Positions 16,523 to 34,891 of a DNA stretch of 35,608 nucleotides are shown piece by piece; within the stretch, counting starts at the first letter, position 1; every line of letters begins with the position of its first letter. The DNA comes from an uncultured Piscirickettsiaceae bacterium. Lineage in GTDB: Bacteria; Pseudomonadota; Gammaproteobacteria; Methylococcales; Cycloclasticaceae. Below the pieces are notes generated by a model. The model searched no databases and was not told where the DNA came from. It saw only the letters and a list, made by a program, of their open reading frames with translations. The position numbers and the translations under genes were made by a program. Location: assembly GCA_913061075.1 (NCBI GenBank), contig CAJXSK010000015.1:1-35608 (forward strand), in the 5' to 3' direction.

Positions 16523-17438
16523 AGTAATTATTGTTTTATCAATTATTCTAGCCACATTTGTCTCTGGTAATACAGTTGCTGCAGAAACAGGACATTTTGG
16601 ACTAGGTACAAAGGCTACTAAAGCAGAAATCGCCGGTTGGGACATCGATGTTCGTCCTGATGGCCAAGGCTTGCCCAAAGGACAAGGTAGCGTGTCTCAA
16701 GGTGAGGGTATGTATGAAGCAAAATGTGCGTCCTGCCATGGTATGTTTGGTGAAGGTGAAGGTCGTTGGCCTCCTTTAGCGGGTGGCGAAGATTCATTAA
16801 CTGAAGACCGTCCTCATAAAACAGTAGGAAGCTACTGGCCATATGCTTCAACGTTATGGGACTATATCAACAGAGCCATGCCCTTCCCTGCACCTCAAAC
16901 ATTATCTGTAGAAGAAGTGTATGCCATATCAGCCTATGTACTTTATCTAAACGACCTTGTAGAAGATGATTTTGTATTGACACAAGATAATTTAGCGTCC
17001 ATAAAAATGCCTAATGAAGCAAACTTTTATATGGACGATAGACCTGATACAAGCAATACGCGTTGCATGAAAAACTGCAAAGACCCTAAAAAGATAATCG
17101 TTGTAGAATCGCTTCGTGGCATAACACCAGAACAAGAAGCCTCAGAATCTAGTACAGCAGCAAGTAAACCTAAATTAAGTGCCGCTGCTATTGAAGGTAA
17201 GGCGACGTACACATCAAGTTGTGTGGTTTGCCATGGCAGCGGTGTCGCTGGCGCACCTAAACTTGACGATAAAGAATCATGGGCAAAGCGCTTGGAACAA
17301 GGAATGGATACTGTTGTTAAGCACGCTATAGATGGTTATATGGGCGAAAATGGCATGATGCCACCTAAAGGCGGCAACCTAACATTGACGGACGAACAAG
17401 TTAAAAATGCCGTACAGTACATGGTAGAGGCTGAATAA
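16506..17438 (+). CDS. soxD: SoxD, dihaem cytochrome c subunit of sulfane dehydrogenase
   Basis: This 310-residue protein starts at ATG 16506, which gives a proper signal peptide (MFSLNKVIIVLSIILATFVSGNTVAA). The in-frame ATG at 16350 would put 52 non-secretory residues in front, deep inside soxC. Two haem motifs, CASCH (74-78) and CVVCH (239-243), match the two cytochrome c domains of SoxD. Extra Cys187 and Cys191 lie between them. It accepts electrons from the SoxC molybdenum centre and passes them to soluble cytochromes. It ends one base before soxX. Confidence 0.93.
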   Translation: MFSLNKVIIVLSIILATFVSGNTVAAETGHFGLGTKATKAEIAGWDIDVRPDGQGLPKGQGSVSQGEGMYEAKCASCHGMFGEGEGRWPPLAGGEDSLTEDRPHKTVGSYWPYASTLWDYINRAMPFPAPQTLSVEEVYAISAYVLYLNDLVEDDFVLTQDNLASIKMPNEANFYMDDRPDTSNTRCMKNCKDPKKIIVVESLRGITPEQEASESSTAASKPKLSAAAIEGKATYTSSCVVCHGSGVAGAPKLDDKESWAKRLEQGMDTVVKHAIDGYMGENGMMPPKGGNLTLTDEQVKNAVQYMVEAE

Positions 17439-17439
17439 C

Positions 17440-17778
17440 ATGCATAAAAAACTGCTAATAATAATCTCCATTACATTATTAACATTAATGTCTAATTTAC
17501 TATTTGCAAATGACATGGATGGCAAAAAAATAGCATTCGATCGTAAAAAAGGTAATTGCCTAGCCTGCCACGTGATGGATGATGGTGATATGGCAGGTAA
17601 CATTGGGCCACCGCTCATTGTAATGAAAGCACGGTTCCCTGACCGCGAGGCGTTGAAAGCCCAAATATGGGATGCAACAACGAAAAATTCAATTTCAATT
17701 ATGCCTCCCTTTGGAAAGCATCAAATATTAAGCGATGCAGAAATTGAAAAACTACTTGATTACTTATACACACTTTAA
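17440..17778 (+). CDS. soxX: SoxX, monohaem cytochrome c of SoxXA
   Basis: This 112-residue protein has a signal peptide (to about residue 23), one haem motif CLACH (40-44) and the Met ligand region IMPPFGKH (Met88), as in SoxX. The short length fits the small SoxX type. With SoxA it forms the complex that oxidatively joins thiosulfate to the SoxY cysteine. It lies between soxD and soxY rather than next to soxA. Confidence 0.92.
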   Translation: MHKKLLIIISITLLTLMSNLLFANDMDGKKIAFDRKKGNCLACHVMDDGDMAGNIGPPLIVMKARFPDREALKAQIWDATTKNSISIMPPFGKHQILSDAEIEKLLDYLYTL

Positions 17779-17800
17779 ACCTATAGCAACTGGAGAAAAC

Positions 17801-18259
17801 ATGGCTATTTCACGAAGAAAATTCTTAAACATGCTAACCATAGGCTCGACTGCCTGCTTGGCATTATTATCACCAATAACATCATGGGCGGCATGGGCAA
17901 GCGATGCATTTAATGCAACAAGCCCAGACGATGCCTACAAAAACTTGTTTGGCTCAACAGATACAGTAGATAGTGATGAAGTTAAACTAAAAGTGCCTAA
18001 AATTGCAGAAAATGGTGGTGCTGTACCTGTATCAGTTAAAACGGATCTTAAAGATGTAGAGTCTATTACTATCTTTGTAAAAGATAACCCTCAGCCTCTA
18101 ACAGCAACTTTTCAAATCTCTGCAAAAACAATACCTGACATCTCAACACGTATTCGTTTAGCTCAAACAAGTACTGTTACTGCCGTAATAAAAGCTGGCG
18201 GAAAGCTATATAGCAAGAGCCAAGAAGTTAAAGTAACAATCGGCGGCTGCGGCGGCTAA
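17801..18259 (+). CDS. soxY: SoxY, sulfur-carrier subunit of SoxYZ
   Basis: This 152-residue protein starts at ATG 17801, where GGAG lies 5 bases upstream and a twin-arginine signal (ISRRKFLNML) begins. The longer frame from 17735 would overlap soxX. The C-terminus is GGCGG with the swinging-arm Cys150, to which sulfur intermediates are covalently bound. The body is a beta-sandwich (LKVPKIAENGGAVPVSVKTDL). It partners SoxZ, encoded 19 bases downstream, and is exported by Tat. Confidence 0.95.
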   Translation: MAISRRKFLNMLTIGSTACLALLSPITSWAAWASDAFNATSPDDAYKNLFGSTDTVDSDEVKLKVPKIAENGGAVPVSVKTDLKDVESITIFVKDNPQPLTATFQISAKTIPDISTRIRLAQTSTVTAVIKAGGKLYSKSQEVKVTIGGCGG

Positions 18260-18278
18260 CCCATAATCGGAGACAAAC

Positions 18279-18581
18279 ATGAAAGTTAAAGCAAAATCAA
18301 AAAACAACATCACGTCTGTTCGTGTGTTAGCAAAACACCCAATGGAAACAGGGCGTCGTATCAATAAAGAATCGGGTGAAAAAATTCCGGCTAAGTACAT
18401 TCAAGAACTAACGTGTGAACACGATGGTAACGTTGTATTTGTTGCACAATTTGGCACATCGGTTTCTAAAAACCCATACTTAGCGTTTTCATTTGAAGGC
18501 GGTAAAAAAGGTGATGCATTACAGATACGTTGGAATGACAATACCGGTGATGTAGCAAAAGTTGAAGCAAAAATTAAATAA
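18279..18581 (+). CDS. soxZ: SoxZ, partner subunit of SoxYZ
   Basis: This 100-residue protein has no signal peptide of its own, as expected because it rides with SoxY through Tat. Family features are HPMETGRRINKESGEKIPAKYIQELTCEHDGNVVFVAQFGTSVSKNPYLAFSFEGGKKGD. It forms the immunoglobulin-like partner that holds SoxY during the cycle. GGAG lies just before the ATG. Gaps to soxY and soxA are 19 and 8 bases. Confidence 0.95.
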   Translation: MKVKAKSKNNITSVRVLAKHPMETGRRINKESGEKIPAKYIQELTCEHDGNVVFVAQFGTSVSKNPYLAFSFEGGKKGDALQIRWNDNTGDVAKVEAKIK

Positions 18582-18589
18582 AATCACCT

Positions 18590-19423
18590 ATGAATCTTCT
18601 ATCTAAAGCACTGATTACATTATTATTAATTTCACTAACAAGTGTAAGCTATGCCACACCTGAGCAAGATAAGGAAACCTTTCAGTCTTTTTACACTGAA
18701 AGGTTTCCAGATATCAGCAAAGCAGAGTTTGGTGATGGTGTTTATGCATTAGATCAAGATGCACGAGATCAATGGGAGGCTATGAACGACTTCCCTCCTT
18801 ACGAAGATGATCTAGAAGAAGGTGAAACACTATTTAATACGCCGTTTACTAATGGTAAAAGTTACGCCAGTTGTTTTGAAAATGACGGTGAAAACATTCG
18901 TCAACATTACCCAAAGTTCGATTCTAAACGTAACATGGTGGTTACCCTAGAATTGGCCATCAATGAATGTAGAACAAATAACGATGAAGAACCCCTGCCA
19001 TATAAAAAAGGTGATATTGCTAAAATATCAGCCTACATGGCCTCAACATCCGAAGGGTCTGAAATTAATATTGCTACACCAACAAGTAAAGGTGAGTTAG
19101 CAGCTTATGAAGCAGGAAAACAGTACTTTTACTCCAAACGTGGTCAATTAAACTTTTCTTGTGCTAATTGTCATATACAAAATGTTGGAAGAAAAGCACG
19201 TTCAGAAACGCTAAGCCCTGCACTAGGCCATCCTACGCATTTTCCAGTTTATAGAATGAAATGGGAATCCTTTGGCACCTTACAAAGAAGGTTTGATTCG
19301 TGTAACAAACAGGTGCGTGCAGAACCGCTACCTGGGCAAAGTGAAGCTTACCGTAACTTAGAATACTTTATGACCTATATGAGTAATGGCTTACCCGTAA
19401 ATGGCCCAGCCTCTAGAAAGTAA
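18590..19423 (+). CDS. soxA: SoxA, cytochrome c subunit of SoxXA (single-haem type)
   Basis: This 277-residue protein has a signal peptide (about 1-22), one haem motif CANCH (191-195) and the active-site Cys in RRFDSCNKQVRAEPLPG (Cys238), the persulfide-type ligand of SoxA. The first haem site of dihaem SoxA is absent. Only Cys95 and Cys127 remain there, probably as a disulfide, as in other single-haem SoxA proteins. It catalyses formation of SoxY-S-thiosulfonate. Codons 28-40 contain a perfect 14-bp hairpin. It is followed 13 bases later by the soxK-like gene. Confidence 0.94.
   Translation: MNLLSKALITLLLISLTSVSYATPEQDKETFQSFYTERFPDISKAEFGDGVYALDQDARDQWEAMNDFPPYEDDLEEGETLFNTPFTNGKSYASCFENDGENIRQHYPKFDSKRNMVVTLELAINECRTNNDEEPLPYKKGDIAKISAYMASTSEGSEINIATPTSKGELAAYEAGKQYFYSKRGQLNFSCANCHIQNVGRKARSETLSPALGHPTHFPVYRMKWESFGTLQRRFDSCNKQVRAEPLPGQSEAYRNLEYFMTYMSNGLPVNGPASRK
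18673..18708 (+). repeat. Perfect 14-bp stem-loop inside the soxA coding region
   Basis: GGAAACCTTTCAGT (18673-18686) and ACTGAAAGGTTTCC (18695-18708) are exact inverse complements separated by 8 bases. The stem lies about 84 bases into soxA, just after the signal peptide codons. No T tract follows at once, so it is not a standard terminator. Confidence 0.8.
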
Positions 19424-19436
19424 ACACAGGCAATAT

Positions 19437-19742
19437 ATGAAACTCAAAGCATTATCGTTAATAATTATTTTTGGATTTTTCTGCACATTAGCAAACGCAA
19501 CGACTGCTACTGACGCTGCAAAAAGCATTCAACTAGCTGAAGATTTATGGGATAAAACAAAATCAGCTGGACACGAATGGAACACAATTAAACCTCTTGT
19601 TGCCCAGGCCAAACAAGCACTTGAAAGCAAAGACTTTGCAACTGCAATTGAATTATCTAACAAAGCCTCTCAACAAGCTGAGCTAGCATTAATACAAGCT
19701 GAGCATGAGAAGACTAACTGGTTGAATAATTTACCCAAATAA
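19437..19742 (+). CDS. soxK: SoxK / SoxXA-binding protein (SAXB-like)
   Basis: This 101-residue protein starts at ATG 19437, which gives a clean signal peptide (MKLKALSLIIIFGFFCTLANA). The mature part is one helical hairpin (AAKSIQLAEDLWDKTKSAGHEWNTIKPLVAQAKQALESKDFATAIELSNKASQQAELALIQAEHEK). The pattern of a KxAxxxxxEWR/N segment followed by AxKxxDFxxAIxLANKAxxQAEL is what I recall for SoxK/SAXB, a small protein that binds SoxXA and raises its activity. Its place between soxA and soxB supports this. Assignment is from memory of the family. Confidence 0.8.
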   Translation: MKLKALSLIIIFGFFCTLANATTATDAAKSIQLAEDLWDKTKSAGHEWNTIKPLVAQAKQALESKDFATAIELSNKASQQAELALIQAEHEKTNWLNNLPK

Positions 19743-19762
19743 CACCGTTTTAGGGCTCTATA

Positions 19763-21511
19763 ATGAATCGTCGTGAATTTAATAAGCTATTAGCAGCAGG
19801 AACAGTTGCGGGCATTTTTCCAAAAACAAGCCTAGCGTTATCATCTAAACCGGTTGACTATACCGTTCCAAACAAAGGGAATGCTCGATTACTACACATT
19901 ACCGATTGTCACGCTCAATTGAATCCAATTTATTTTAGAGAACCTAATGTAAACATGGGCATTCACGATGCTATTGGCCGTATACCACATATTGTTGGTA
20001 AAGCATTCTTAAAAAAAAATAATATTTTAGAAAACTCTCTTGAATCTCATGCCTTCACGTATTTAAACTTTGACAGTGAAGCTAAAGATTATGGAAAAGT
20101 TGGTGGATTCGCGCACTTAAGCACCCTAATCAAGTCCCTAAGATCAGCAGCTGGTGATAAATCAAACAGCCTGCTACTTGATGGCGGTGATACTTGGCAA
20201 GGCTCTGCAACAGCTTATTGGACCCGCGGTGATGATATGGTCCAAGCAGCCAACTTACTCGGTGTAGATGTAATGACAGGCCATTGGGAATTCACCTATC
20301 AAGATGAAGAAGTTTTCACCAATGTCGATAACTTTAAGGGTGAGTTTTTAGCACAAAATATTAAACTGACTGAAGATGCATTATTTGAAGGTAAACGTGC
20401 TCATAATGAAGATACTGGGCATGTCTTTAAGCCTTATAGCATAAAAGAAATGAATGGTCATAGAGTGGCTATTATTGGGCAAGCATTCCCCTACACACCT
20501 GTCGCTAACCCAAAACGCTTCATACCGGATTGGAGCTTTGGGATACAAAATGAAGATCTTCAAGAACTCGTTGATACCATCAAAGCAGATGAAAGCCCTG
20601 ATGCCATTATAGTCTTGTCACACAACGGTATGGATGTGGATTTAAAACTTGCATCTGTTGTAACAGGCATTGATTTTATTTTAGGCGGCCACACACATGA
20701 TGGTGTCCCCATCCCTGTTACTGTTAAGAACAGTGGCGGCCAAACTGTTGTTACAAATGCAGGATCTAATGGCAAATTTGTAGGTGTACTTGATCTGAAT
20801 TTAGAGAAAGGTAATGTTAAAAGTTACGACTATAAGCTGTTACCTGTGTTTTCTAACTTCATTAAACCTGACCCTGAAATGTCAGCATTAATTGAAAAAA
20901 TTCGCAAACCTCACCTAGAGACTCTTAATGAAGAACTGACTGTAACTGAATCGTTACTTTACCGCCGTGGAAACTTTAACGGCACATTTGACCAGTTAAT
21001 ATGTGATGCCCTAAGGCACGAACTCGATGCTGAGATCTCACTATCGCCAGGCTTCAGATGGGGAACTACTGTCTTAGCTGGTGAACCTATTACCTTTGAA
21101 AATGTAATGGATCAAACCTGTATAACATACCCAGAAACATATGCTCGAAATATGTTTGGAAAAGAAATAAAGTCTATTTTAGAAGATGTGGCAGATAACT
21201 TGTTTCATCCAGACCCGTTCTATCAACAAGGTGGCGATATGGTGCGTGTTGGTGGTATGAATTACTTCTGCGACCCTACGGCACCTTCAGGGCAGCGTAT
21301 TTCGAATATGACACTTGATAACGGTAAAGCCGTGGAGCCTAATAAACATTATAAAGTTGCCGGCTGGGCCATTGTTGGCTCAAAAGCTCCGGGGATTCCT
21401 ATTTGGGATGTTGTTGCTAATTATTTACGTGGCCAAAAAAGTATTAATATATCTAAGATCAATTCACCTAAGCTTATCAATGTAGCCAACAACCCGGGGA
21501 TTGTTCTTTAA
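19763..21511 (+). CDS. soxB: SoxB, dimanganese thiosulfohydrolase
   Basis: This 582-residue protein has a twin-arginine signal, NRREFNKLL (2-10). Metal-ligand motifs are TDCHAQ (Asp48, His50), GGDTWQGS (Asp143), GHWEFTYQ (173-180), LSHNGMDVD (His287) and GGHTHDG (His310, His312). The 5'-nucleotidase-type C-terminal domain follows from about 370. It releases sulfate from SoxY-bound thiosulfonate in the periplasm. It is the last gene of the sox operon. Its stop lies only 2 bases from the stop of the converging fliT-like gene, with no terminator between them. Confidence 0.96.
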   Translation: MNRREFNKLLAAGTVAGIFPKTSLALSSKPVDYTVPNKGNARLLHITDCHAQLNPIYFREPNVNMGIHDAIGRIPHIVGKAFLKKNNILENSLESHAFTYLNFDSEAKDYGKVGGFAHLSTLIKSLRSAAGDKSNSLLLDGGDTWQGSATAYWTRGDDMVQAANLLGVDVMTGHWEFTYQDEEVFTNVDNFKGEFLAQNIKLTEDALFEGKRAHNEDTGHVFKPYSIKEMNGHRVAIIGQAFPYTPVANPKRFIPDWSFGIQNEDLQELVDTIKADESPDAIIVLSHNGMDVDLKLASVVTGIDFILGGHTHDGVPIPVTVKNSGGQTVVTNAGSNGKFVGVLDLNLEKGNVKSYDYKLLPVFSNFIKPDPEMSALIEKIRKPHLETLNEELTVTESLLYRRGNFNGTFDQLICDALRHELDAEISLSPGFRWGTTVLAGEPITFENVMDQTCITYPETYARNMFGKEIKSILEDVADNLFHPDPFYQQGGDMVRVGGMNYFCDPTAPSGQRISNMTLDNGKAVEPNKHYKVAGWAIVGSKAPGIPIWDVVANYLRGQKSINISKINSPKLINVANNPGIVL

Positions 21512-21513
21512 TC

Positions 21514-21816
21514 TTACGTCGCTAAATATTGGTTAATCGCTTTATGAGCATGCCCTGCTTTAGACATTTCAAGATGTAAACTATCACGCTGACTATGTGA
21601 GTACTGCATAAGAATTTTGTTTTTTTGCAAAATGTATTGCAAACCATCGTGTAGAACAGATTCATCTATATCAGGTTGGTTGGAAAATAAACTTTTTATC
21701 GCTAACTCTCTCTTTTTTTCTAAACTAATTAGCTTATCCCATTCACCTAATTCAGCCAGTTTAATTAGTTTACTCGTATCTTTTAAAATTTCGTCAAATT
21801 TTATTTCAGCATTCAT
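21514..21816 (-). CDS. fliT: FliT-like flagellar chaperone
   Basis: This 100-residue, almost wholly helical protein (LIKLAELGEWDKLISLEKKRELAIKSLF ... LQKNKILMQYSHSQRDSLHLEMSKAGHAHKAINQYLA) is typical of FliT in length and pattern. FliT family proteins are export chaperones for the filament cap FliD and can inhibit the flagellar master regulator. The call rests on weak similarity plus its position after fliD-fliS. It is the last gene of the leftward flagellar run, 25 bases after fliS. Confidence 0.75.
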   Translation of the reverse strand: MNAEIKFDEILKDTSKLIKLAELGEWDKLISLEKKRELAIKSLFSNQPDIDESVLHDGLQYILQKNKILMQYSHSQRDSLHLEMSKAGHAHKAINQYLAT

Positions 21817-21841
21817 AAATGTTCCTTAGTGGAGCCTTTAA

Positions 21842-22228
21842 TTATGATTGTGGTTCAATCGCATCCCAACCCATTTTAACTTGGCTTAACAACTTGCCTG
21901 CCTCGTCTAATAACTCAGGATTATTTTCTGTATTTGCTTTTAATAAAATATGTCCAATATACTCATATAAAGCATCTAGGTTTTTAGAAATCTCACCACC
22001 ATGTTTAAAATCCAAGCTTGCTTTGAGGCTTTCAATAATTGATATCGCATTACCAATTTGTTCACCTTTTTTAGCTATATTGTTTTGCTTCATATGCCCT
22101 TTTGCAGACAATATTCTTGTTAACGCACCGTCTAATAACATTTGAATTAACCGATGCGGAGTTGCATCCATTATTGCCCCGTGAACACCCACTTGCTGAT
22201 ACTGTTTTAACGCTGTCGCACCATTCAT
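21842..22228 (-). CDS. fliS: FliS flagellin export chaperone
   Basis: This 128-residue helical protein has the FliS signature ALKQYQQVGVHGAIMDATPHRLIQMLLDGAL (6-36), then a central IGNAISIIESLKASLD and a C-terminal LLSQVKMGWDAI. FliS binds the C-terminal helices of flagellin to prevent premature polymerisation. It lies 20 bases after fliD. Flagellin in this window is interrupted upstream of the FliS-binding end. Confidence 0.93.
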   Translation of the reverse strand: MNGATALKQYQQVGVHGAIMDATPHRLIQMLLDGALTRILSAKGHMKQNNIAKKGEQIGNAISIIESLKASLDFKHGGEISKNLDALYEYIGHILLKANTENNPELLDEAGKLLSQVKMGWDAIEPQS

Positions 22229-22248
22229 ATTGTTCTCCCTACTTATAT

Positions 22249-23646
22249 TTAATTTGATTTATTTGGGTCAATTGAACCAGGTAAATTGGCCAATTGTTGT
22301 GTTAAAAAATTGCTCTGATTGGTTAATGAACTAACCAATGTGTCTAACGCTGTAAATTGCGCTAACAACCTGCTTTCTAAACTGATTAAACGTCTATCCA
22401 ACGCTTCTCGCTGTTCTGTTATGTCATCAACACGTGATTGAAGTCCATCTGTACGGGTATCTAATATGCCTGCTGAACTAACGTATTGTTCTATTGCATT
22501 GTCCAGGGTATTAGCGATACCGTTTGATGCTGAAAACAATTCTCCAATTTGATCAAAGTCTTCATCCAAAACGGTGCTGAGTTTTGCACTATCTAACGAA
22601 AGTTTTCCGTCATCACCCGTTGTAAGCCCTATTTCAGCTAATGTACTAAAACTGCCTGTTAAACCCGAGACTGATGAAGACATCTCTCGCCTTATTAGGT
22701 TTTGTACACCCCGCAAGGTAGCATCACCTATTAAAATACCTGCTGCATCGGTGCTCCCATTAAAAGAACCTAACGCAGAGAACGTATCTATCAGTCCGTT
22801 ATAATTAGCAATAAATGTGTTTATTTTTTCTGTTACTGCTTCTTTATCAGTCGTTACTGTTAGGGTTTCCCCTGCTCCAATTGCAACTGAACTAATGGTG
22901 ACGCCCTCTATAACCTCTCCAAAGTCATTATTCGAACTACTGACCAATTGCCCATCCACTTTAATTTGGCCATCTAATGCAGCCGCTGGTTCTGTTAAAT
23001 TCCCACTAACCAGTCTTGATAATCCTAAAGCATCTGTATTGTTTGAATCACTATCAATTGCTGTAATCGTGATGGCATTGTCTAAGCCTGATTCATTGGC
23101 TGTGAAAACTAATTTGCTTTCAGTCCCCCCACTTCCATCGTCAACATTGATGATAGCTGCTGATACGCCGGTGTTATCCGCTGCTGCATTAATTGCATCA
23201 CGGATATCCGTTAACTTATCTGTTCCACTAACAGAAATTGAAAAAGAACCCGTTCCTTGCGTTAGTGTTAAGGTTCCACTGCCAATAACATCTGTTGATG
23301 CGAAACCATCATTTGTAATCAGTTTGTTTGCTTGTGCTAATTGAACAACCTCTATGCCATATTGCGACACATCGGCTGACTCATCTGCTGTTACTAGAAA
23401 GACTTCTTCGTTACTACTAGCTGCAGACCGTAATTGGAAATCGCTCGCTGTTTGCAAGTCTTTTACGGCCGTTTGAAAAATTGACAAGGCACTTTTAAGT
23501 GACCCATACGCAGAAATATCGCCTTGATATTCTGCTTCTCGTAAATTCAATCGATTAGATTTTGCTGAACCTTCAGCAGTAACCAATTGCGTAATAAGGT
23601 TGCCTATATCTAAGCCTGAACCTATACCTGGTGATGAAATTGACAT
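22249..23646 (-). CDS. fliD: FliD filament cap protein (HAP2)
   Basis: This 465-residue protein begins MSISSPGIGSGLDIGNLITQLVTAEGSAKSNRLNLREAEYQGDISAYGSLKSALS, the FliD N-terminal domain. A flagellin-hook IN motif-type repeat region lies in the middle (150-200, IRDAINAAADNTGVSAAIINVDDGSGGTESKLVFTANESG). The C-terminal coiled coil is RTDGLQSRVDDITEQREALDRRLISLESRLLAQFTALDTLVSSL. It caps the growing filament and directs flagellin assembly. AGGATT precedes the ATG. It follows flaG by 53 bases. Confidence 0.95.
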   Translation of the reverse strand: MSISSPGIGSGLDIGNLITQLVTAEGSAKSNRLNLREAEYQGDISAYGSLKSALSIFQTAVKDLQTASDFQLRSAASSNEEVFLVTADESADVSQYGIEVVQLAQANKLITNDGFASTDVIGSGTLTLTQGTGSFSISVSGTDKLTDIRDAINAAADNTGVSAAIINVDDGSGGTESKLVFTANESGLDNAITITAIDSDSNNTDALGLSRLVSGNLTEPAAALDGQIKVDGQLVSSSNNDFGEVIEGVTISSVAIGAGETLTVTTDKEAVTEKINTFIANYNGLIDTFSALGSFNGSTDAAGILIGDATLRGVQNLIRREMSSSVSGLTGSFSTLAEIGLTTGDDGKLSLDSAKLSTVLDEDFDQIGELFSASNGIANTLDNAIEQYVSSAGILDTRTDGLQSRVDDITEQREALDRRLISLESRLLAQFTALDTLVSSLTNQSNFLTQQLANLPGSIDPNKSN

Positions 23647-23699
23647 AATGAATCCTATTTACATTTATCTATAAGATAATATGCAATATTCAAGCCTCC

Positions 23700-24092
23700 T
23701 TATGCACTTTGATTAAAAACTATACCCTTTGAAACATCGCTTACTTGTGCTCTCGTTTCAGCAATATAGTCGGCAATGGCCAAGGCCTCTTCGGATGGGA
23801 ATTTACGTATCTCTTCCCCTGTCTCTCTGTCTGTTACGGTAATGATGCTTCGCCCTGTTTCCTCATGAACACTGAACTGAATGCCGCGCTGAATACTTTG
23901 AACAAATTTATTTAAATCACTCACGGTTTCTTCAATTTGTTGTGACGGTGATACTTCCGGTTTTTTAGGTTCTTGTGGCAAACCCTTGCCGACTTCCGTT
24001 TCAACTGATTGAGCATTATTTACTACGGGAACAGACGCTAGTTTCGGGGCAACTGATTTGCTTACCTCATTCACTATGTTTGTTATTTCCAT
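23700..24092 (-). CDS. flaG: FlaG family protein
   Basis: This 130-residue protein has a variable N-terminal half. The FlaG core is at 50-130 (QIEETVSDLNKFVQSIQRGIQFSVHEETGRSIITVTDRETGEEIRKFPSEEALAIADYIAE). FlaG homologues affect filament length; the mechanism is unclear. GGAG lies just before the ATG. It lies 63 bases after fliC, separated from it by a strong hairpin. Confidence 0.9.
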   Translation of the reverse strand: MEITNIVNEVSKSVAPKLASVPVVNNAQSVETEVGKGLPQEPKKPEVSPSQQIEETVSDLNKFVQSIQRGIQFSVHEETGRSIITVTDRETGEEIRKFPSEEALAIADYIAETRAQVSDVSKGIVFNQSA

Positions 24093-24112
24093 AATCTTCT
24101 CCGTTAAGGATT

Positions 24113-24142
24113 GCTGGCTCTAGCTTTAACACTAGAGCCAGC
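24113..24142 (-). terminator. Hairpin between fliC and flaG
   Basis: Perfect 11-bp arms (24113-24123 and 24132-24142) enclose an 8-base loop, 14 bases after the fliC stop. No T tract follows in the leftward direction (AATCC). It may therefore be a partial terminator or an mRNA-stabilising 3' end that keeps fliC mRNA more abundant than the downstream genes. Confidence 0.6.
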
Positions 24143-24155
24143 GTTACCTACCGGT

Positions 24156-25394
24156 TTACTGTAATAAAGCCAATACGTTTTGCGGCAAAGAGTTAGCTTG
24201 CGACAAAATTGACACACCAGCTTGTTGTAGAATTTGCGCTCTTGTTAAAGCAGCAGTTTCTTCAGCAAAGTCAGCGTCACGGATACGGCTACGTGAAGCA
24301 CTTAAGTTTTCTGATGTTGTTTGAATACTGGCTACAACAGAATCAAAACGGTTCTGAATAGCACCTAAAGACGCACGAGATCCGTTAATTGCTGTTAACG
24401 CACTATCAACAGATAGAATCGCCGCGTTAGCACCGTCTACAGTTGCAACAGTCGTATCAGCAATCGTTGTACCAATTAATGCTGCTGATGCGGCTGTTGT
24501 ACCTGCTGTTAAACCAGCTTGTGCAGCACCTGCACCTGCAATAACAAGGTCAGAATTTGCAGATGTAATAGTATCAATAACACTACGGAAGGTTGTTGAT
24601 AATGCTGTTAAACCCTCTGCAGCCGAATCAGTTCCACTTTCAACTAAAGCAATATTTCTACCGTCAGCCGCTGTAATATCTAGTGTCGCACCAGCTGCTG
24701 ATGCAGTAAAACCAGCCACGTTATTAATAACACCTGCTACTTCTGCCGCAGTAATTGTGCCATCAGCACCCGCTGCTGTTAAATCTAACGTAGAACCTGC
24801 AAGGGTTAGTGTGTAATCAGGAGCCGCAGCTGTAACAGCAACTGTACCCGCTTGTGTTTCACTTTCAGTAATGCTTCCTGCAACGCCTGTTAGTGTACTT
24901 GTTCCTGTTGCAAACGTTATTGCAGTACCATCCGCTTTTTCAAGGACCAAATCGCCGCCTGAAAGGGAACCAGCCGTAACAGTATAAGCACCGCCACTAG
25001 CAGCAACAAACGCAGTCAAATCAGCATCTAGTTCAGCAGCAATAGCTACTGTAGCTACAGTTTCAGCTGCACCAAATGTTACATTTGCAGCTTCCGCACC
25101 GTCAATTGTTAATATGAATTGTTCACCAGCGCCTGCACCTGCTGTACCAGCAATAGCAGTTAATGTATTTTCTGTTGCCACGCCTGTTACAGCAGCCGTA
25201 CCCACAACATCAACAAACGCAATGCCTGTTTGCACATTCGCTGCGGCAGTAGCAGTTAAGTTACCATCAGACGCTGAAATGGCAGCAGCAAGAGCAGCCG
25301 CATCGCCATCAACAGCACCTAAAGTATTACCATTAATCGTTAATGTTCCCGCTGCTACATCACCTACTACCGCTGTTGCGTTGGCTAATGACAC
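24156..25394 (-). CDS. fliC: Flagellin C-terminal ORF (variable and D1-D0 part)
   Basis: This is the part downstream of the TAA, in the same frame as the N-terminal ORF. The first possible start is a GTG at 25394 without a convincing ribosome site, so independent translation is doubtful. The intervening codons 25395-25475 are also flagellin-like, which shows that this is one broken gene rather than two genes. Confidence 0.6.
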   Translation of the reverse strand: MSLANATAVVGDVAAGTLTINGNTLGAVDGDAAALAAAISASDGNLTATAAANVQTGIAFVDVVGTAAVTGVATENTLTAIAGTAGAGAGEQFILTIDGAEAANVTFGAAETVATVAIAAELDADLTAFVAASGGAYTVTAGSLSGGDLVLEKADGTAITFATGTSTLTGVAGSITESETQAGTVAVTAAAPDYTLTLAGSTLDLTAAGADGTITAAEVAGVINNVAGFTASAAGATLDITAADGRNIALVESGTDSAAEGLTALSTTFRSVIDTITSANSDLVIAGAGAAQAGLTAGTTAASAALIGTTIADTTVATVDGANAAILSVDSALTAINGSRASLGAIQNRFDSVVASIQTTSENLSASRSRIRDADFAEETAALTRAQILQQAGVSILSQANSLPQNVLALLQ

Positions 25395-25475
25395 GCCATT
25401 TGATTGACCTAGCGAGAATGTACGCGCACTGGCGATAGAGTTAATACCGACTACTTCACCGGCATTAGCACCTAC

Positions 25476-25919
25476 TTAGAATTGTTGGCTAGCAAAACTA
25501 CCATCTAACAAGTTAACGCCGTTGAACGAACTTGATGTTGCAACACGATCAATCTCTGAAATTAGTTCAGATACTTCGTTTTGAAGCGCTGCTCTATCAG
25601 ATGCTGAGTTGGTCGCATTAACTGATTGAACGGCTAGCTCACGAACACGTTGTAAGTTATTAGTGATTTGTGCTAAATCACCCTCAGCAGTTTGTGCTAA
25701 AGAGATACCGTCGTTGGCATTTCGTGCTGCTTGGTTTAAACCACGAATTTGTGTGGTAAAACGCTCTGAAATAGCAAGGCCGGCCGCATCGTCTTTCGCG
25801 CTGTTGATACGTAAACCAGATGAAAGTCTTTGTAACGACGTGTTCAAATCATTCTGAGATGTATTCAGATTTCTTTGAGCCGTTAAAGACGCAATATTTG
25901 TGTTAATAATTTGTGGCAT
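25476..25919 (-). CDS. fliC: Flagellin N-terminal ORF (D0-D1 part), 147 residues
   Basis: This is the portion translated before the TAA. It contains the N-terminal D0/D1 helices only ([44 protein letters not shown]) and lacks the C-terminal helices needed for polymerisation and FliS binding, so on its own it should not build a filament. AAGGAG stands 8 bases before the ATG. Confidence 0.8.
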
Positions 25920-25934
25920 TTAAATTGCTCCTTT

Positions 25935-25952
25935 GTAAACCTTTCGGTTTAC
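25935..25952 (-). promoter_or_regulatory. GNRA-type leader hairpin just before the fliC ribosome site
   Basis: On the minus strand GTAAACC-GAAA-GGTTTAC forms a 7-bp stem capped by a GAAA tetraloop, 3 bases upstream of AAGGAG. Such a stable hairpin next to the ribosome site could protect the mRNA 5' end or control flagellin translation. Confidence 0.6.
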
Positions 25953-26016
25953 TTAATTTTTATACATGACGGATATATCTTTTAATAAATCTAGATATTC
26001 ACCGCCTCCGAGTAAG

Positions 26017-26043
26017 TTATCGGCAAGGAGCTTGAAATCTTTA
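26017..26043 (-). promoter_or_regulatory. Sigma-28 (FliA) promoter of fliC
   Basis: Reading leftward, TAAA (26043-26040), 15 bases, then GCCGATAA (26024-26017) match the sigma-28 consensus exactly. It lies about 100 bases upstream of the fliC ATG, so the leader is about 90 bases. Confidence 0.92.
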
Positions 26044-26110
26044 GTGCGTTTATTAAGTATTTATGGAATTGCTAGAAACTGTGACATAGAGCAAACTTTC
26101 TATTTGATTC

Positions 26111-27349
26111 TTAAAGTTCATTAAACAAGGAGAGCCCTTGAACTCGCACAAATGCTTGTTGTGCAGCTTGGAGTGCAACAATTTGAAGATTAAATTCACT
26201 GATCGCTGCCGCCAAATCCAAATCTTCCACTTGAGATTTTGTTTCTTGAATTGCTAAGGTGAAATCTTGGTTTATTTCATCTTGGCTATCAACAACATTT
26301 AAGCGAGCACCAATTTGTGAACGAACATCTAAAATACGCCCTAACGCTGTATCTATTTGATCTAAATGATCATAAAGAGGCACTGAAGGGCCGCTAGTTA
26401 TAGAGAAGTCACCACCTGTTGCATCAGTAAAATTCAGCGTGCCTGGCCCTTCGGCATCTGCTAGCAACGTTAGGTTACTACCCACTACTGTGGCCGTTAC
26501 ATCTGTATTACCCAAGCCTTGTTCAGTATTGATTGCATTGCCTAAATTAGCCGTCGTAATGTCTGTTGTGCCACCAATAGGTACAGCAGTATTGCCCAAC
26601 GTAACTCCACCGGCACTTTCAAATTCATAGGTAATACCATTTATTGTGACGGTTTCTCCATCTGCTGGTTGAAGAGCAGTGGAAATGACCGCTTCTTCTT
26701 GTGCTGGCTTGTTAGTCGACAAGTCTGTTGCCAAGCTATACAGCGTGGTAAAAATATCTTCTTGGTTGCCGTCTTTATCCGTAATGTCGTAAAAAATTTC
26801 AGCACCAGAATTGCCATCGGCAACGGTTCTACCCTCGCCGACTTGAATCAGCCGCTGGCCTTGATCACCTTGATAACTAAAACTACCCGAATCAGAATTT
26901 CCCGTAAACGGTTGTGTTTGGCCTTTGAAACCTGCATATAAGTAGTCGCCACTGGCATCTTTTATATTGGCCAACGCCAACACTTCGTCTAAACGCTCGA
27001 ACATTTCTTCGGCTATTGACGCCCTATCTGATGCTGTATTGGTCGCATTAAACCCTTGTACTGCTAATTCTCTTACGCGCTGAATGCTATTGGTAACACT
27101 TTGCAAGGTACCATCCGACAAAGCCAACCGATTTTCTGCATAATCAAGGTTTGTTTGATATTGTTCTAATCTGCTAAGGGATTGATTTAAATCTAAAACC
27201 CGTACTGCACCTGCCGGGTCATCTGAAGGTTTTAAAATCTTTTTACCCAATGATATTTGCTGCTGCAACTCATTTAGGCGCGCTTGTTGAAGCGTTATAG
27301 CGTTTATCCCTAGCTGTTGAGATAAGTTTGTTGAAATTCTATCGACCAT
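26111..27349 (-). CDS. flgL: FlgL hook-filament junction protein (HAP3)
   Basis: This 412-residue protein has flagellin-like N-terminal helices (MVDRISTNLSQQLGINAITLQQARLNELQQQISLGKKILKPSDDPAGAVRVLDLNQSLSRLEQYQTNLDYAENRL) and C-terminal helices (SQVEDLDLAAAISEFNLQIVALQAAQQAFVRVQGLSLF). A beta-rich insert with an IN-type repeat (about 218-320, ADGETVTINGITYEFESAGG) makes it longer than the E. coli protein. It joins the hook to the filament. The start overlaps the flgK stop by one base. Confidence 0.94.
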   Translation of the reverse strand: MVDRISTNLSQQLGINAITLQQARLNELQQQISLGKKILKPSDDPAGAVRVLDLNQSLSRLEQYQTNLDYAENRLALSDGTLQSVTNSIQRVRELAVQGFNATNTASDRASIAEEMFERLDEVLALANIKDASGDYLYAGFKGQTQPFTGNSDSGSFSYQGDQGQRLIQVGEGRTVADGNSGAEIFYDITDKDGNQEDIFTTLYSLATDLSTNKPAQEEAVISTALQPADGETVTINGITYEFESAGGVTLGNTAVPIGGTTDITTANLGNAINTEQGLGNTDVTATVVGSNLTLLADAEGPGTLNFTDATGGDFSITSGPSVPLYDHLDQIDTALGRILDVRSQIGARLNVVDSQDEINQDFTLAIQETKSQVEDLDLAAAISEFNLQIVALQAAQQAFVRVQGLSLFNEL

Positions 27350-29262
27350 TATCTGAATGCCCCTATTAATGTATCAAAAATGGTACGTGACGTTAATACC
27401 ACCTGACTAGCCGCTTGATATGCTTGTTGAAAACGAACCAAATCGGCCGCTTCTTCATCCAAGTTCACACCACTGACTGAATCTTTAGCCGCTATGGTTT
27501 GGTTGAGCAATCCTTCCTGTGCGGTAAGGTTAGCTTCAGCAGATTGTGTTTTTCGACCCACATCTGCGACAATCTGGCCATATACATCTTGAAACGATGA
27601 GCTACCACCAGACATTGTTAATGCCGTTTGTAAACCAGATAATAAGTTGGCATTTCTATTATCCCCAACGCCACCCACATTAGCGGTTAAGTCGATTGTG
27701 TCGGTATTCGCAGGTTGCCCCGTTAGGTTGAAATTAATATCGCCGAAACCTGCAACATTTAAGGTATAGCTAGCTCCATTATTAACGGTTGGGTCGTAGG
27801 CAAGTGGGCCACCTGTCGCGCCAGCAACCGTATATTGCTGTAATACAGAATCGTACGTTAGTGTCACATTCGCGGGTAATGTGGACGCTGATAAATTACT
27901 GATACTGATATTATTCAGTTGGCCGGATCCAGAATTGATGGCAGGAACATTGCTACTAACCGGCAACCCCATGGCAATTGATTCGGGGTTTGTGATGGCC
28001 ACAGAAAAAGTCCCTGCCGCACTGCGAGTTGGCCGAACTCGGTAACTATCATTGGCCGCCACACTAGCAAGGTTAAAGGTTAAACCATCTTGCGTAACTG
28101 ATCCTGCAGCCACTAAACCTGAGAATTGAGCATTGTCAGACAACCGCGTAATAGTGTAATTGGTGTTGGTTGCATCGGTAGTGACAGAATAATCGCTTGT
28201 AGTTAAGTCTGCTATATTCGCAAATGCCACATTTAGTGACCCTGCACCCGCCAAACTAATAACATCGGCTTGAGGGCTGGAAAAAAAGTCCAAACCTTGA
28301 TTTCCATTTAAATCAATACCATTAGTATGTTGCTCATTAACAGCAAGAGCCAATGATGTAGCCACTTGACCCAATGTATTAATAGATGGGTCCAACACCT
28401 CATTTCTAAAACGAATCGTGCCTCCAAGTTCCCCACCCGTCATAAACTTGGTGACGACTAAATTACCCGCAGGTTGTTGGATGACAATGTCCACAGCTCC
28501 CGCATCAAACCCTGTCTGTTGCGTACCTAACGTATAAAACGTTGTATCCAAAACCAACGATTGACCACTGCCAATGAAGACATTTACCGCGCCGTTCTCC
28601 TGTGTTGTAGTACTTACATTAACGAGTTTTGATAAGTCGTCAATTAACGTATCCCGCTCATCGAGCAAATCATTTGGCAACGAGCCATTACCAAAACTTG
28701 TAGTAGTTACAATTTGCTGATTAAGCGCAGCAATACCACTGGCAATATTATTGATATTTTGCAAGTTACCTTGCAGGCCACTATTGACCTGGGATGTAAG
28801 GTCACTTAAATAATTATCAAGCGTATTAAATCTATTTTCTAGCACCTCGCCTTCAGATAACAGAACTTGCCTAGCGGGAATTGACGTTGGGTCGTCGGCA
28901 ACAGCTTGCACCGCATTAAAAAAATCTTGCATCGCCGTGCTTAAACCAACGTTTTGATTAGCCAAAACGCTATCAACTTGAGACGATAAATTTGCGAACG
29001 CATCTAACTCTGAACTCGCAGCACTGCTGTTGCGAAACTGGACGCTTAAAAATTGATCGTACAATCGTGTAACTGCGCCACTATTAACACCAGTGCCTAC
29101 ATAAGATGACCCCAGTAGCTGCGGATCGCGCGCATCAAGTTCAACACGTTGGCGACTGTAACCATCTGTATTAACATTGGCTATATTATGACCCGTTGTA
29201 TTCAGCACGTTTCTAAATGCTGTTAAACCGGACAAGCCTGTTAATAAAAGATCACCGGCCAT
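27349..29262 (-). CDS. flgK: FlgK hook-filament junction protein (HAP1)
   Basis: This 637-residue protein begins LLLTGLSGLTAFRNVLNTTGHNIANVNTDGYSRQRVELDARDPQ, the FlgK/rod-hook N-terminal domain. It ends SVSGVNLDEEAADLVRFQQAYQAASQVVLTSRTIFDTLIGAFR, the conserved C-terminal coiled-coil. The middle holds long beta-rich variable domains. It is the first junction protein on the hook. A sigma-28-type -10 box precedes it, and flgL follows with a 1-base overlap. Confidence 0.95.
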   Translation of the reverse strand: MAGDLLLTGLSGLTAFRNVLNTTGHNIANVNTDGYSRQRVELDARDPQLLGSSYVGTGVNSGAVTRLYDQFLSVQFRNSSAASSELDAFANLSSQVDSVLANQNVGLSTAMQDFFNAVQAVADDPTSIPARQVLLSEGEVLENRFNTLDNYLSDLTSQVNSGLQGNLQNINNIASGIAALNQQIVTTTSFGNGSLPNDLLDERDTLIDDLSKLVNVSTTTQENGAVNVFIGSGQSLVLDTTFYTLGTQQTGFDAGAVDIVIQQPAGNLVVTKFMTGGELGGTIRFRNEVLDPSINTLGQVATSLALAVNEQHTNGIDLNGNQGLDFFSSPQADVISLAGAGSLNVAFANIADLTTSDYSVTTDATNTNYTITRLSDNAQFSGLVAAGSVTQDGLTFNLASVAANDSYRVRPTRSAAGTFSVAITNPESIAMGLPVSSNVPAINSGSGQLNNISISNLSASTLPANVTLTYDSVLQQYTVAGATGGPLAYDPTVNNGASYTLNVAGFGDINFNLTGQPANTDTIDLTANVGGVGDNRNANLLSGLQTALTMSGGSSSFQDVYGQIVADVGRKTQSAEANLTAQEGLLNQTIAAKDSVSGVNLDEEAADLVRFQQAYQAASQVVLTSRTIFDTLIGAFR

Positions 29263-29307
29263 AATAATTTATTTCGTTCGTTAGTTTCATGATTTACCTT
29301 TATCTGT

Positions 29308-29334
29308 TTATCGGCCTAAGCCGCTTTTTCTGAA
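29308..29334 (-). promoter_or_regulatory. Sigma-28-type promoter of flgKL
   Basis: GCCGATAA (29315-29308, leftward) is a perfect sigma-28 -10 box starting at the base after the flgJ stop codon. Fifteen bases upstream is TTCA (29334-29331), only a half match to TAAA. The position between flgJ and flgK is where enteric bacteria have a FliA-dependent flgKL promoter. Confidence 0.7.
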
Positions 29335-30251
29335 CCTGTAGCTAATGTGCCACTGTTTAACGAAGACAAATGTTCATTGTTTAATATTGAGATAATTTTT
29401 TTGGCGTAAGCTGGGTCAGTCGCATAACCGGCTTTTTGAAGCCCTTTTACAAACCGTTCATTAGAGTCAACATTTGATAACGCTTGCTGATAAAGCGGAT
29501 TTTGTTTTAAGAACTGAACATAATCATTAAAACTTTCTTGATAGTTATCATATGCCCGAAAAGACGCCTGTTTTTTTACAGCTACACCATTTTCATATTC
29601 GACGGTTTGTACAGATACCGTTTTACCTTGCCATCCACGTGATGCTTTAATGCCGAATAAATTATGACTGCTTTGGCCGTTTCTATCTGACATAACGTGC
29701 TTACCCCAACCCGTTTCTAATGCAGACTGTGCTAGTAAAACTTTTGGGTTAACACCTAATTCTTCAGCCGCTGTTTTGGCATGTGACCATAACTTGTCTA
29801 TAAACTGTTCAGGCGATTTTATATCCGACGTTGGTTTACTTACCAAACCATTAATACGCAGTTTTTGGGTATGAAAAGCAGAAACAGCTCGATAATCATC
29901 TATTGTTTTAATGTTGTTTTTTGCATTAGCATCAGATGAATTCACGCCACCCAACTGCTGGACAATCATATTTGCAAGCCCAACGTTGCCACGTTTTGTC
30001 AAATCAAGAGAAATTTGATCGTCGTACATTGATTGATAGAAGCGTGTTTTATCATTGTTAATCAAATCAGATTCTGGCACCGTATCACGCATGCTTTTCA
30101 GCATCATTTTCATAAAGATACTTTCAAACTGCCTAGCCGCTTCACTCAGCGCTTTTTGCTCGCTGGCCTTGTTACCACCTGCTTTAGCGCGTAGCTCAGC
30201 CAAGCCATGGAAATCGGCGTAGGTATCAACTTGTACGTTTGCTAGGCTCAT
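29316..30251 (-). CDS. flgJ: FlgJ rod cap protein and peptidoglycan hydrolase
   Basis: This 311-residue, two-domain protein has an N-terminal rod-binding part at 30-105 (ALSEAARQFESIFMKMMLKSMRDTVPESDLINND...YQSMYDDQISLDLTKRGNVGLANMIVQQL). The C-terminal glucosaminidase/muramidase domain is at about 145-300 (LLAQSALETGWGKHV, catalytic Glu179; NLFGIKASRGWQGKTV). It opens the wall for rod growth. It begins 6 bases after flgI. Confidence 0.95.
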   Translation of the reverse strand: MSLANVQVDTYADFHGLAELRAKAGGNKASEQKALSEAARQFESIFMKMMLKSMRDTVPESDLINNDKTRFYQSMYDDQISLDLTKRGNVGLANMIVQQLGGVNSSDANAKNNIKTIDDYRAVSAFHTQKLRINGLVSKPTSDIKSPEQFIDKLWSHAKTAAEELGVNPKVLLAQSALETGWGKHVMSDRNGQSSHNLFGIKASRGWQGKTVSVQTVEYENGVAVKKQASFRAYDNYQESFNDYVQFLKQNPLYQQALSNVDSNERFVKGLQKAGYATDPAYAKKIISILNNEHLSSLNSGTLATGSEKAA

Positions 30252-30257
30252 ATTCGT

Positions 30258-31364
30258 TTAAATAACTATTAGCTCGGCACTCAGTGCGCCCGCACCTTTT
30301 AAGGCTTCTAAAATAGCCACTAGATCACTGGGGCCTGCACCCACTTGATTAACTGCCCTAACAATTTCATCCAATGAAACACCCGGGTTAAACACAAACA
30401 TACGACTATTTTCTTCACTGATAGACACATCAGATTCCGGCGTCACAACTGTTTCACCATCTGAAAATGCGCCTGGCTGGCTGACATTTGCGCTTTCATT
30501 AATTGTTACTACCAAATTACCGTGAGACACCGCCGCTGGTCGCACTTTAACTTGGCTATTAATAACCACCGTGCCTGTTCTAGAATTAATGATCACTCTG
30601 GCAGCCGTTTGAGCCGGTTGTACTTCCAGATTCTCTAACAATGAAAGGAAGGCCACTCGCTGCGCAGAATCTCTAGGCATGTTCACTTTAATGCTGCCAC
30701 CATTAATGGCACGTGATGTATTCGGGCCCACTGCATTATTAATAGAACCTGCTAAACGATTTGCCGTTGTAAAATCAAATGTATGCAAATTTAGTGTTAA
30801 AGATTTACCATCCCCAAATGAACTGCGAACTGAACGCTCTACCGTGGCCCCATTAGGTATATTACCTACAGTGGGTATATTGACACTCACTTTTGAACCA
30901 TCACTTCCTGCTGCGCTTAGGCCACCAACTACTAAATTACCTTGGGCAATGCCGTAGACATTGCCATCAACACCTTTTAGTGGTGATATTAATAAGGTAC
31001 CGCCCCGCAAACTACTGGCCTCACCAATTGAGTTAACGGTGACATCAATATTTTGACCAGGAACCGCAAACGCTGGCAAGCTGGCATGAATAACCACGGC
31101 TGCAACGTTTTTAGATTTTATTTGGATGCTGGATGGGATTTTTACACCCACTTGAGCCAACATGCTCCGAACACTTTGTGAGGTAAAATCACCCGATTTT
31201 ACTTTATCGCCCGTACCATTTAAGCCAACTACAACGCCATACCCTATCAATTGGTTTGAACGAACACCTGATATTGATGCTAAGTCTTTTATACGTTCAG
31301 CATGAGCCGCCGTAACACTTAGTGCCAACAGTAATGCTATAAATAGTTGTTTAATATTCATCAT
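30258..31364 (-). CDS. flgI: FlgI periplasmic P-ring protein
   Basis: This 368-residue protein has a signal peptide ([22 protein letters not shown]) and the FlgI start [32 protein letters not shown]. It ends [28 protein letters not shown]. It forms the P-ring in the peptidoglycan layer around the rod. Two ATGs are adjacent (31364 and 31361), and the second has better spacing from AAGGAG. The gap to flgH is 7 bases. Confidence 0.96.
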
Positions 31365-31371
31365 TCACTCC

Positions 31372-32052
31372 TTAAAACGGGAACACGGCACTAATAAAGA
31401 ACCTTGCTAACCAGCCAATCCTGTTTGCATCAGCTAGAGCACCTTCGCCTGTGTACATAATGGTGGCATCAGCTATTTTGGTAGATTCAACGCTATTGTC
31501 TGGATTGATATCGGTAGGGCGAATAATCCCTGCCACCCTAATATATTCATTTCCTTGGTTTAAACGTACGCGCTTTTCACCACGTATTTTCAAGTAACCA
31601 TTTGGCAATACGTCCATAACACTCACTGTGATACTGCCACTCAAACTGTTCTTTTGCGTACTTTCAGTTTCACCTGCAAAGTCATTGGCTGAGGTTAAGC
31701 TACTATTTAGGTTTAGCCCAAACTTTGACGGGTCAGCAATGCCTAAGAATGTTGGGGTAGAAATTGACGTGGTATTACCTTTTTTAATGTCCGTATCAGA
31801 CTCTTTTTTAGCATCGGTTTTTTCTACCAAGTTAATGGTTAAAATATCACCAATTCGTCGAGCCCTAATGTCTTCAAAAAACCGCACATCGTACCCAGCT
31901 TGATATATTGAACCATTACGGTGCTGAGGCATTTGATAAGCCGATGGTGCTGCAGGTTTGTATTCTGCATCATGTCGTGGCTTAGCCATTTCATCCATCA
32001 TTGCGCAACCCGGCAACACGGTGAATAATATTAAAAAGTTTAATAGCTTCAT
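31372..32052 (-). CDS. flgH: FlgH outer membrane L-ring lipoprotein
   Basis: This 226-residue protein has a lipoprotein signal ending in LPGC (Cys16). The FlgH body is visible (GSIYQAGYDVRFFEDIRARRIGDILTINLVEKTDAKKESDTDIKKG...SLSGSITVSVMDVLPNGYLKIRGEKRVRLNQGNEYIRVAGIIRPTDI). It forms the L-ring in the outer membrane. It lies between flgG (16 bases) and flgI. Confidence 0.96.
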   Translation of the reverse strand: MKLLNFLILFTVLPGCAMMDEMAKPRHDAEYKPAAPSAYQMPQHRNGSIYQAGYDVRFFEDIRARRIGDILTINLVEKTDAKKESDTDIKKGNTTSISTPTFLGIADPSKFGLNLNSSLTSANDFAGETESTQKNSLSGSITVSVMDVLPNGYLKIRGEKRVRLNQGNEYIRVAGIIRPTDINPDNSVESTKIADATIMYTGEGALADANRIGWLARFFISAVFPF

Positions 32053-32068
32053 CTTAATATTCCCTAAC

Positions 32069-32857
32069 TTACAGGTCCTGCATTAAACGTTGCAACATCT
32101 GATCGGTTGTTGATATTGCTTTTGAATTCATTTCGTAAGCACGTTGTGTTTCAATCATTCCTACTAATTCTTCTACAACATTTACATTGGATGTTTCCAA
32201 TGAGCCTTCACTTAAAATACCAACGCCCGATGTGCCCGGTGTTCCAACAATTGGGCTGCCACTGGAAAGCGATTCTCTAAATTGATTCTCACCAATCGGA
32301 TCTAAGCCAACCGGGTTGATGAAATCTGCTAACGTAACATTGCCAACTTGTGATGGTGTGGCATTACCCGGTTGAAGAACCGATACCGTGCCATCAATGC
32401 CTACGGTAACGCTCAATGCATCTTCTGGAATTGAGATGGACGGCTCTAGCGGGTAGCCACCTGATGTTACTAATTGACCCGTTGAATCTAGTTTGAAGCT
32501 TCCATCTCGTGTATAGGTAATGCTTCCATCAGGCCGCAATACTTGGAAAAAACCGCGGCCGCTAACAGCCATATCCAAAGAATTGCCTGTTTGTAAAATA
32601 CTGCCTTGCGTATGCGTTTTTTCAGTCGCAACCGTTCTAACACCTGTGCCAATTTGCAAGCCTGTTGGCAGGGTTGTGTCTTGTGAAGATTGCGCACCTA
32701 CTTGCCTGATATTTTGGTAAAGTAAATCTTCAAAAATGGCGCGAGACTTTTTGAAACCCGTTGTGTTTACGTTAGCCAAGTTATTCGAAATAACGGCCAT
32801 ACGAGTTTGTTGAGCTTCTAGCCCTGTTTTACTGATCCATAATGCTTCTGTTGCCAT
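32069..32857 (-). CDS. flgG: FlgG distal rod protein
   Basis: This 262-residue protein begins [48 protein letters not shown], with the FlgG-specific [10 protein letters not shown] region. It ends [37 protein letters not shown]. It builds the distal rod through the P and L rings. It is 13 bases after flgF. Confidence 0.97.
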
Positions 32858-32870
32858 CTTATTCTCCTAC

Positions 32871-33611
32871 TTAACCTACACGCATTAACTGCGCACTAGC
32901 TGCTTCGTTATCGTCAATTGTTTTCATCATTTTTACTTGTAACTCGAAATTTTTGGCTAATTCAATCATACTAACCATCGCAGACACGACACTCACATTA
33001 CTGCCTTCTATAGAACCTGACACCAACCTCACATCCGCACTCACTTCAGCTTGCTGGCCCTGCTTTAGTCTAAATAAACCATCATGGCCCTTCTCTACTT
33101 CTGACAAATCGGGGTTAACCAGCTTTATCCTGTCGATTGCTGTGAGCGTTTCCGCGGAATCACCTAAAGGAATGACGCTAACCGTGCCATCCACACCAAT
33201 TTCCATTTTTGCCGATACTGGCACCGTAACGGGCCCACCGCCGCCCAATACTGGCAGGCCGGTTCCCGTTGTCAGCAAGCCATCCGCTGTTAACCGTAAA
33301 TCACCGGCTCGCGTATAGGCTTCTGACCCATCATTTGCCTGCACTGCAATCCAACCATCGCCATTTATAGATACATCTAGTTCACGACCCGTTTGCTGAA
33401 AAGCGCCGGCATCAAAATCAATGCCCGGGCGTTCTGTCATCGCATAAACATGTGATGGCAAACCAGGGCCATACACGGGCATACTTCTAAACTGAGACAA
33501 GTCCGCTTTAAAACCCGTTGTATTAGCGTTGGCTAAGTTATGCGAATTAACGGCTTGCGAAAGCAACACTTGTTTCGCTCCACTCATCGCTACATATAAG
33601 CTACTGTCCAT
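32871..33611 (-). CDS. flgF: FlgF proximal rod protein
   Basis: This 246-residue protein begins MDSSLYVAMSGAKQVLLSQAVNSHNLANANTTGFKADLSQFRSMPVYG, typical of FlgF. It ends SVVSAMVSMIELAKNFELQVKMMKTIDDNEAASAQLMRVG. It is part of the proximal rod. It is 26 bases after flgE. Confidence 0.95.
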   Translation of the reverse strand: MDSSLYVAMSGAKQVLLSQAVNSHNLANANTTGFKADLSQFRSMPVYGPGLPSHVYAMTERPGIDFDAGAFQQTGRELDVSINGDGWIAVQANDGSEAYTRAGDLRLTADGLLTTGTGLPVLGGGGPVTVPVSAKMEIGVDGTVSVIPLGDSAETLTAIDRIKLVNPDLSEVEKGHDGLFRLKQGQQAEVSADVRLVSGSIEGSNVSVVSAMVSMIELAKNFELQVKMMKTIDDNEAASAQLMRVG

Positions 33612-33637
33612 TTAGATACCCTCTTTTTCCTAATAAT

Positions 33638-34879: not shown

Positions 34880-34891
34880 AACCTTCTCCTA

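Follow-up and report, generated by a model that had tools for sequence, protein, structure and literature searches.

A flagellin gene interrupted by a single stop codon

What does one stop codon in the middle of an otherwise intact flagellin gene mean for the cells that carry it? The question is raised by fliC in an assembly assigned to the genus Cycloclasticus (2,256,817 bases, or 2.26 Mb, spread over 20 contigs, with ratings of 100% for completeness and 0% for contamination), where the gene lies on a contig that was analysed over its whole length (C15; 35,608 nucleotides, hereafter the window). The fliC frame runs on the minus strand from 25919 to 24156 (588 codons) and holds stops only at codons 148 and 588. 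Codon 148 is a TAA (25478-25476, minus strand), after which the same frame remains open for another 439 codons and ends at 24156. Neither a frameshift nor an additional stop occurs before this normal end.

Profile matches to the gene fall on either side of the stop. Flagellin_N (PF00669, E 3.6e-46) covers codons 1-147 (25479-25919, minus strand), and Flagellin_C (PF00700, E 3.3e-27) covers codons 149-587, wholly past the TAA, in the remainder of the gene that leads to the normal TAA (24156-25475, minus strand). A single translated product has the N-terminal domain and is without the C-terminal one. In random bases with the composition of that part of fliC, the chance of 439 open codons is about 8e-12; the run is too long to be accidental, which argues that fliC is one gene. 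Together with the way in which the domains are split, this rules out two separate genes. Past the stop there is no ATG, and translation could begin there at the earliest from a GTG at 25394, 27 codons in.

Upstream of the gene, an exact match to TAAA-N15-GCCGATAA, which we take to be the sigma-28 promoter consensus, lies at 26043-26017 (minus strand), and the ribosome-binding site AAGGAG is found at 25933-25928 (minus strand). With at most one mismatch allowed, the promoter consensus has 2 matches in the window against 0.28 expected, and 4 of 100 shuffles gave at least two. A sequence-only reading of this DNA had described a flagellin gene broken by one in-frame TAA at a usual glutamine codon, with its promoter and ribosome site intact. 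Our results agree with it on all of these points, as the frame and the relatives bear out the broken codon, the exact promoter match and AAGGAG are present, and the coordinates given there for fliC and the stop are correct.

Comparison with related flagellin genes

We found fliC in 11 of the 17 other genomes of the genus, and the in-frame stop of codon 148 is absent from all 11 orthologues. In the codon alignment, all ten aligned relatives (L034 to L037 and L039 to L044) have glutamine at the stop site. The eleventh, L038, was excluded from the alignment because it runs off its contig; its sequence, read directly, gives FQVGANAG at the site. A broader search covered 61 genomes, our own included, and yielded a match in 40 of them. 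Among the matches listed, no stop lies inside any stretch, a result that does not extend to the stop site itself, since the query ended at codon 147. Viral contigs were scanned for either form of the site and nothing was found. In one related genome (G008; L168 13677-15931), fliC and flgL are separated by 2255 bases, versus 191 in the window.

The codon comparison was also used to assess constraint on the two parts of the gene. With L034, the nearest relative, the comparison gives a dN/dS of 0.080 before the stop (147 codons) and 0.081 in the C-terminal 98 codons, with 0.24 in the naturally variable middle of fliC. In the 32 codons right after the stop, dS against L034 is saturated and hence uninformative on constraint there. 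L034 is a distant relative (dS 0.54 in the N part and 0.78 in the C part), so "recent", as used below, means recent on that scale only. Against the eight other relatives used, dN/dS ranges from 0.10 to 0.18 in the N part, where unsaturated, and from 0.07 to 0.25 in the C part. Five pairs of relatives with intact fliC give 0.04 to 0.21 and 0.03 to 0.22, respectively. L035 was aligned but omitted from the rates, as its stretch ends ahead of its stop codon.

Constraint is thus undiminished on both sides of the stop, and no other lesion is present, which suggests that fliC encoded a full-length protein until lately, or does so still. An old pseudogene fails as an explanation, because the codon comparison revealed neither of its signs: constraint is unrelaxed and further decay is absent. 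It is worth stressing that undiminished constraint is equally expected of a fliC that still works or has been wrongly read.

The rest of the flagellar system

When the whole assembly was searched with PF00669 and PF00700, each profile recovered two genes, namely fliC and the neighbouring flgL (26111-27349, minus strand). The latter is intact, judging by profile matches and length, and no gene besides it and fliC was found to have flagellin domains. Other copies of fliC, suggested for checking by the sequence-only reading, did not turn up, and no second flagellin was detected in the 20 contigs, between which there are gaps. An intact paralogue that replaces fliC was therefore rejected, within the bounds set by these gaps. 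In the 11 relatives of the same genus with flagellin-domain matches there are two matches each and no third, so a further hidden copy is not expected in this assembly either.

The remaining flagellar genes of the window appear whole. On one side of fliC, flgK, flgJ, flgI, flgH, flgG, flgF, flgE and flgD are all full length by family and length (27349-35563, minus strand); on the other, flaG, fliD, fliS and fliT are open and of normal length by the same measures (21514-24092, minus strand). Elsewhere in the assembly, fliE to fliJ are complete by family on contig C10, FlhA is complete on contig C1 with a MotA-type gene near it, and the start of contig C7 holds two rod-protein genes; most genes on C1 and C7 owe their names to gene order and background knowledge.

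When the window and the stretches from C1, C7 and C10 were compared with two related genomes (G008 and G004), fliC was the only flagellar gene judged to be shortened, and wider decay of motility genes was not found in these stretches. Some of the other rows in this comparison were flagged for alignment coverage below 90%. Inspected by eye, they were antisense frames, genes cut at the ends of stretches or proteins with poorly aligning ends, and their dismissal is a judgement made in that way. Poorly aligning ends, with frames of similar length in both genomes, were seen at C1 32607-33044, C1 30634-31197 and C7 1399-3041 and in fliT and flaG.

Across the genus, a match to FlhA is missing in 6 of 18 Cycloclasticus genomes, our own included in the count. 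Three of the six are incomplete (73, 80 and 83%); the rest, in 80 to 240 contigs, have completeness ratings of 98 to 100%. One of them, G012 (120 contigs, completeness rating 100%), lacks an FlhA match although its fliC is open, and another genome (G013; 87% complete) has two FlhA pieces and no fliC match. The fliC stretch of G012 (L036) does not differ over 3441 bases from L080, a sequence of a Cycloclasticus symbiont of Bathymodiolus heckerae, and the assignment of our assembly to Cycloclasticus rests on this identity.

Stop codons, tRNAs and repeats

TAA is a working stop in this genome. In 290,609 bases we counted 220 long ORFs (150 codons or more) that do not overlap one another; the stop is TAA in 139 of them, TAG in 51 and TGA in 30. 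We obtained 34 tRNA matches, 32 of them above the cut-off, and ARAGORN read 31. None of these 31 carries a UUA anticodon, in a set that is incomplete, and the sole tRNA-Gln read has the anticodon TTG. The assembly yielded no tRNA for Ala, Ile(GAT) or Trp, perhaps because rRNA operons were left unassembled. A change of the genetic code or a suppressor tRNA, as candidate explanations, are thus unsupported by the use of TAA and by the tRNAs read from this partial set.

Contig ends also truncate two matches that resemble a tRNA or tmRNA (L182 438-506 and L183 1-110, on contigs C7 and C12), which is a further mark of the incompleteness of the tRNA set. For the match that closes C7, an alignment read by eye gives the anticodon UUC (Glu), and to the one at the start of C12 no anticodon could be assigned. 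A third, weak match (C7:73243, 20.8 bits) is below the cut-off.

No tandem repeats occur in 23700-27400. The inverted repeats of this region are imperfect (77-87% complementary) and lie in coding sequence, and there are neither repeats nor invertible elements at the stop itself. One pair (79%), also in coding sequence, has its arms at 25017-25040 and 25588-25611 and flanks the stop at a distance. The RNA around the stop, considered as a possible recoding structure, is not unusually folded (z -0.89; 36 of 200 shuffles fold as well).

In-frame stops were also sought elsewhere in our own stretches, by a scan limited to splits that leave 100 codons or more on each side of the stop, and blind to frameshifts. 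It revealed 38 places where two open segments of that length share a frame with one stop between them. In 31 of these an ATG follows within 11 codons after the stop, as in neighbouring genes; the other seven are fliC and six more. In one of the six (C9 12161) the halves belong to two unrelated families, and two (C4 9109 and C5 15219) have no Pfam match. The remaining three (C1 177396, C10 17387 and C10 16023) were taken to be adjacent genes or an antisense frame and dropped with no family search. In the 290,609 bases, fliC is the one clear case of a gene divided by a single in-frame stop, and the assembly does not look rich in errors of this kind.

Possible explanations of the stop

The probable explanation, in our view, is that a point mutation recently placed a nonsense codon in the single flagellin gene, and that the filament was thereby lost in the sequenced strain or population. 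Translation would stop after 147 residues, and the product would be without the variable domain and the C-terminal helices. In the D0/D1 core of flagellin filaments, these helices are paired with those of the N-terminus. The hook and the basal body would presumably still be built, no filament would form, and the sequenced strain, or the majority of the population, would be non-swimming. Of the four options offered by the sequence-only reading, the evidence most favours recent loss of the filament, because no other flagellin was found, the relatives are open at the site, and the remainder of the gene is constrained and intact. From this we infer that the stop base is real, the filament absent and the mutation recent, with the base itself read from a single assembly for the species. 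The TAA may instead have arisen as an error in sequencing or assembly, or have entered a metagenome consensus from a minority variant, in which case living cells would have an open fliC. This is unlikely, yet it carries appreciable weight, as a one-base lesion in an otherwise well-kept gene, with the flagellar genes otherwise whole, is how an error would look, and the comparisons with relatives fit an error as well as a mutation, the general cleanness of the assembly apart. It is this cleanness, within the reach of the scan described above, that speaks against it, and a single-base error is less likely than recent loss of the filament.

The two other options seem to us scarcely credible. If readthrough of the TAA, with glutamine or another residue, were frequent enough for a filament to form, the undiminished constraint on the C-terminal part past the stop would be accounted for. 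However, TAA terminates most of the long ORFs, the tRNAs read, incomplete as they are, include no UUA anticodon, the RNA near the stop has no unusual structure, and not one of the 11 relatives with fliC shares the stop. The insertion of glutamine at ochre codons and an ochre suppressor tRNA, both brought up by the sequence-only reading, therefore gain no support. A reversible switch of the population between swimming and non-swimming by mutation at codon 148, suggested there as well, would agree with that codon being the only break seen in the flagellar genes examined; positive evidence for it is lacking, though, as the region has no tandem repeats, its inverted repeats are imperfect and away from the stop, and an intact remainder is equally expected after any recent mutation. 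With no repeats at the stop, any such switch would have to run on ordinary point mutation. That ochre readthrough yields small amounts of flagellin, or that the codon flips within the population, with swimming confined in either case to a few cells, is very improbable too.

Relation to known systems

Events of this type are ordinary. Natural strains in which one flagellar gene carries a stop while the others are retained are already known. According to PMC6520453, Bordetella pertussis has a stop in flhA, stated to be present in all annotated genomes, while its flagellar genes are otherwise present. The same paper reports motility of B. pertussis nonetheless and proposes a bypass of the stop as one possibility, without demonstration. 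The present case resembles this one in that a single stop affects one flagellar gene and the remaining system is kept. It differs in that the filament gene itself is hit, in a genus of marine hydrocarbon degraders, whereas in B. pertussis the gene is flhA and motility is reported. Since motility is reported for B. pertussis despite its stop, loss of swimming in the present strain should not be assumed.

Loss of the flagellum also occurs in other Cycloclasticus, as indicated by the genomes without an FlhA match; unlike in those six, where a whole gene is missing, only one codon is hit here. If the stop is real, an early step in the loss of swimming has been caught, with only the filament gene seen to be affected. 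This makes the fliC stop useful as an example and not as a new mechanism.

In the literature, no paper matched all terms of a search for a premature fliC stop tied to non-motility, readthrough, symbiosis or experimental evolution. A stop in a flagellin gene is not described in the portions consulted of an Edwardsiella paper (PMC2764856) and a Ligilactobacillus paper (PMC12688256), and words that start with motil, flagell or chemota are absent from the main text, as retrieved, of a Cycloclasticus paper (PMC12510462).

Apart from the flagellar genes, the window carries a cluster of the sox type for thiosulfate oxidation (15212-21511, plus strand), located between fimV and fliT. It comprises a molybdopterin oxidoreductase, a cytochrome with two haem domains, SoxZ, SoxA and a protein of the 5'-nucleotidase family, which is presumably SoxB-like. 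Between the counterparts of fimV and fliT in G004, there are matches only to 17735-18259 of the window and to SoxZ. PMC12510462 reports a sox operon in a Cycloclasticus MAG.
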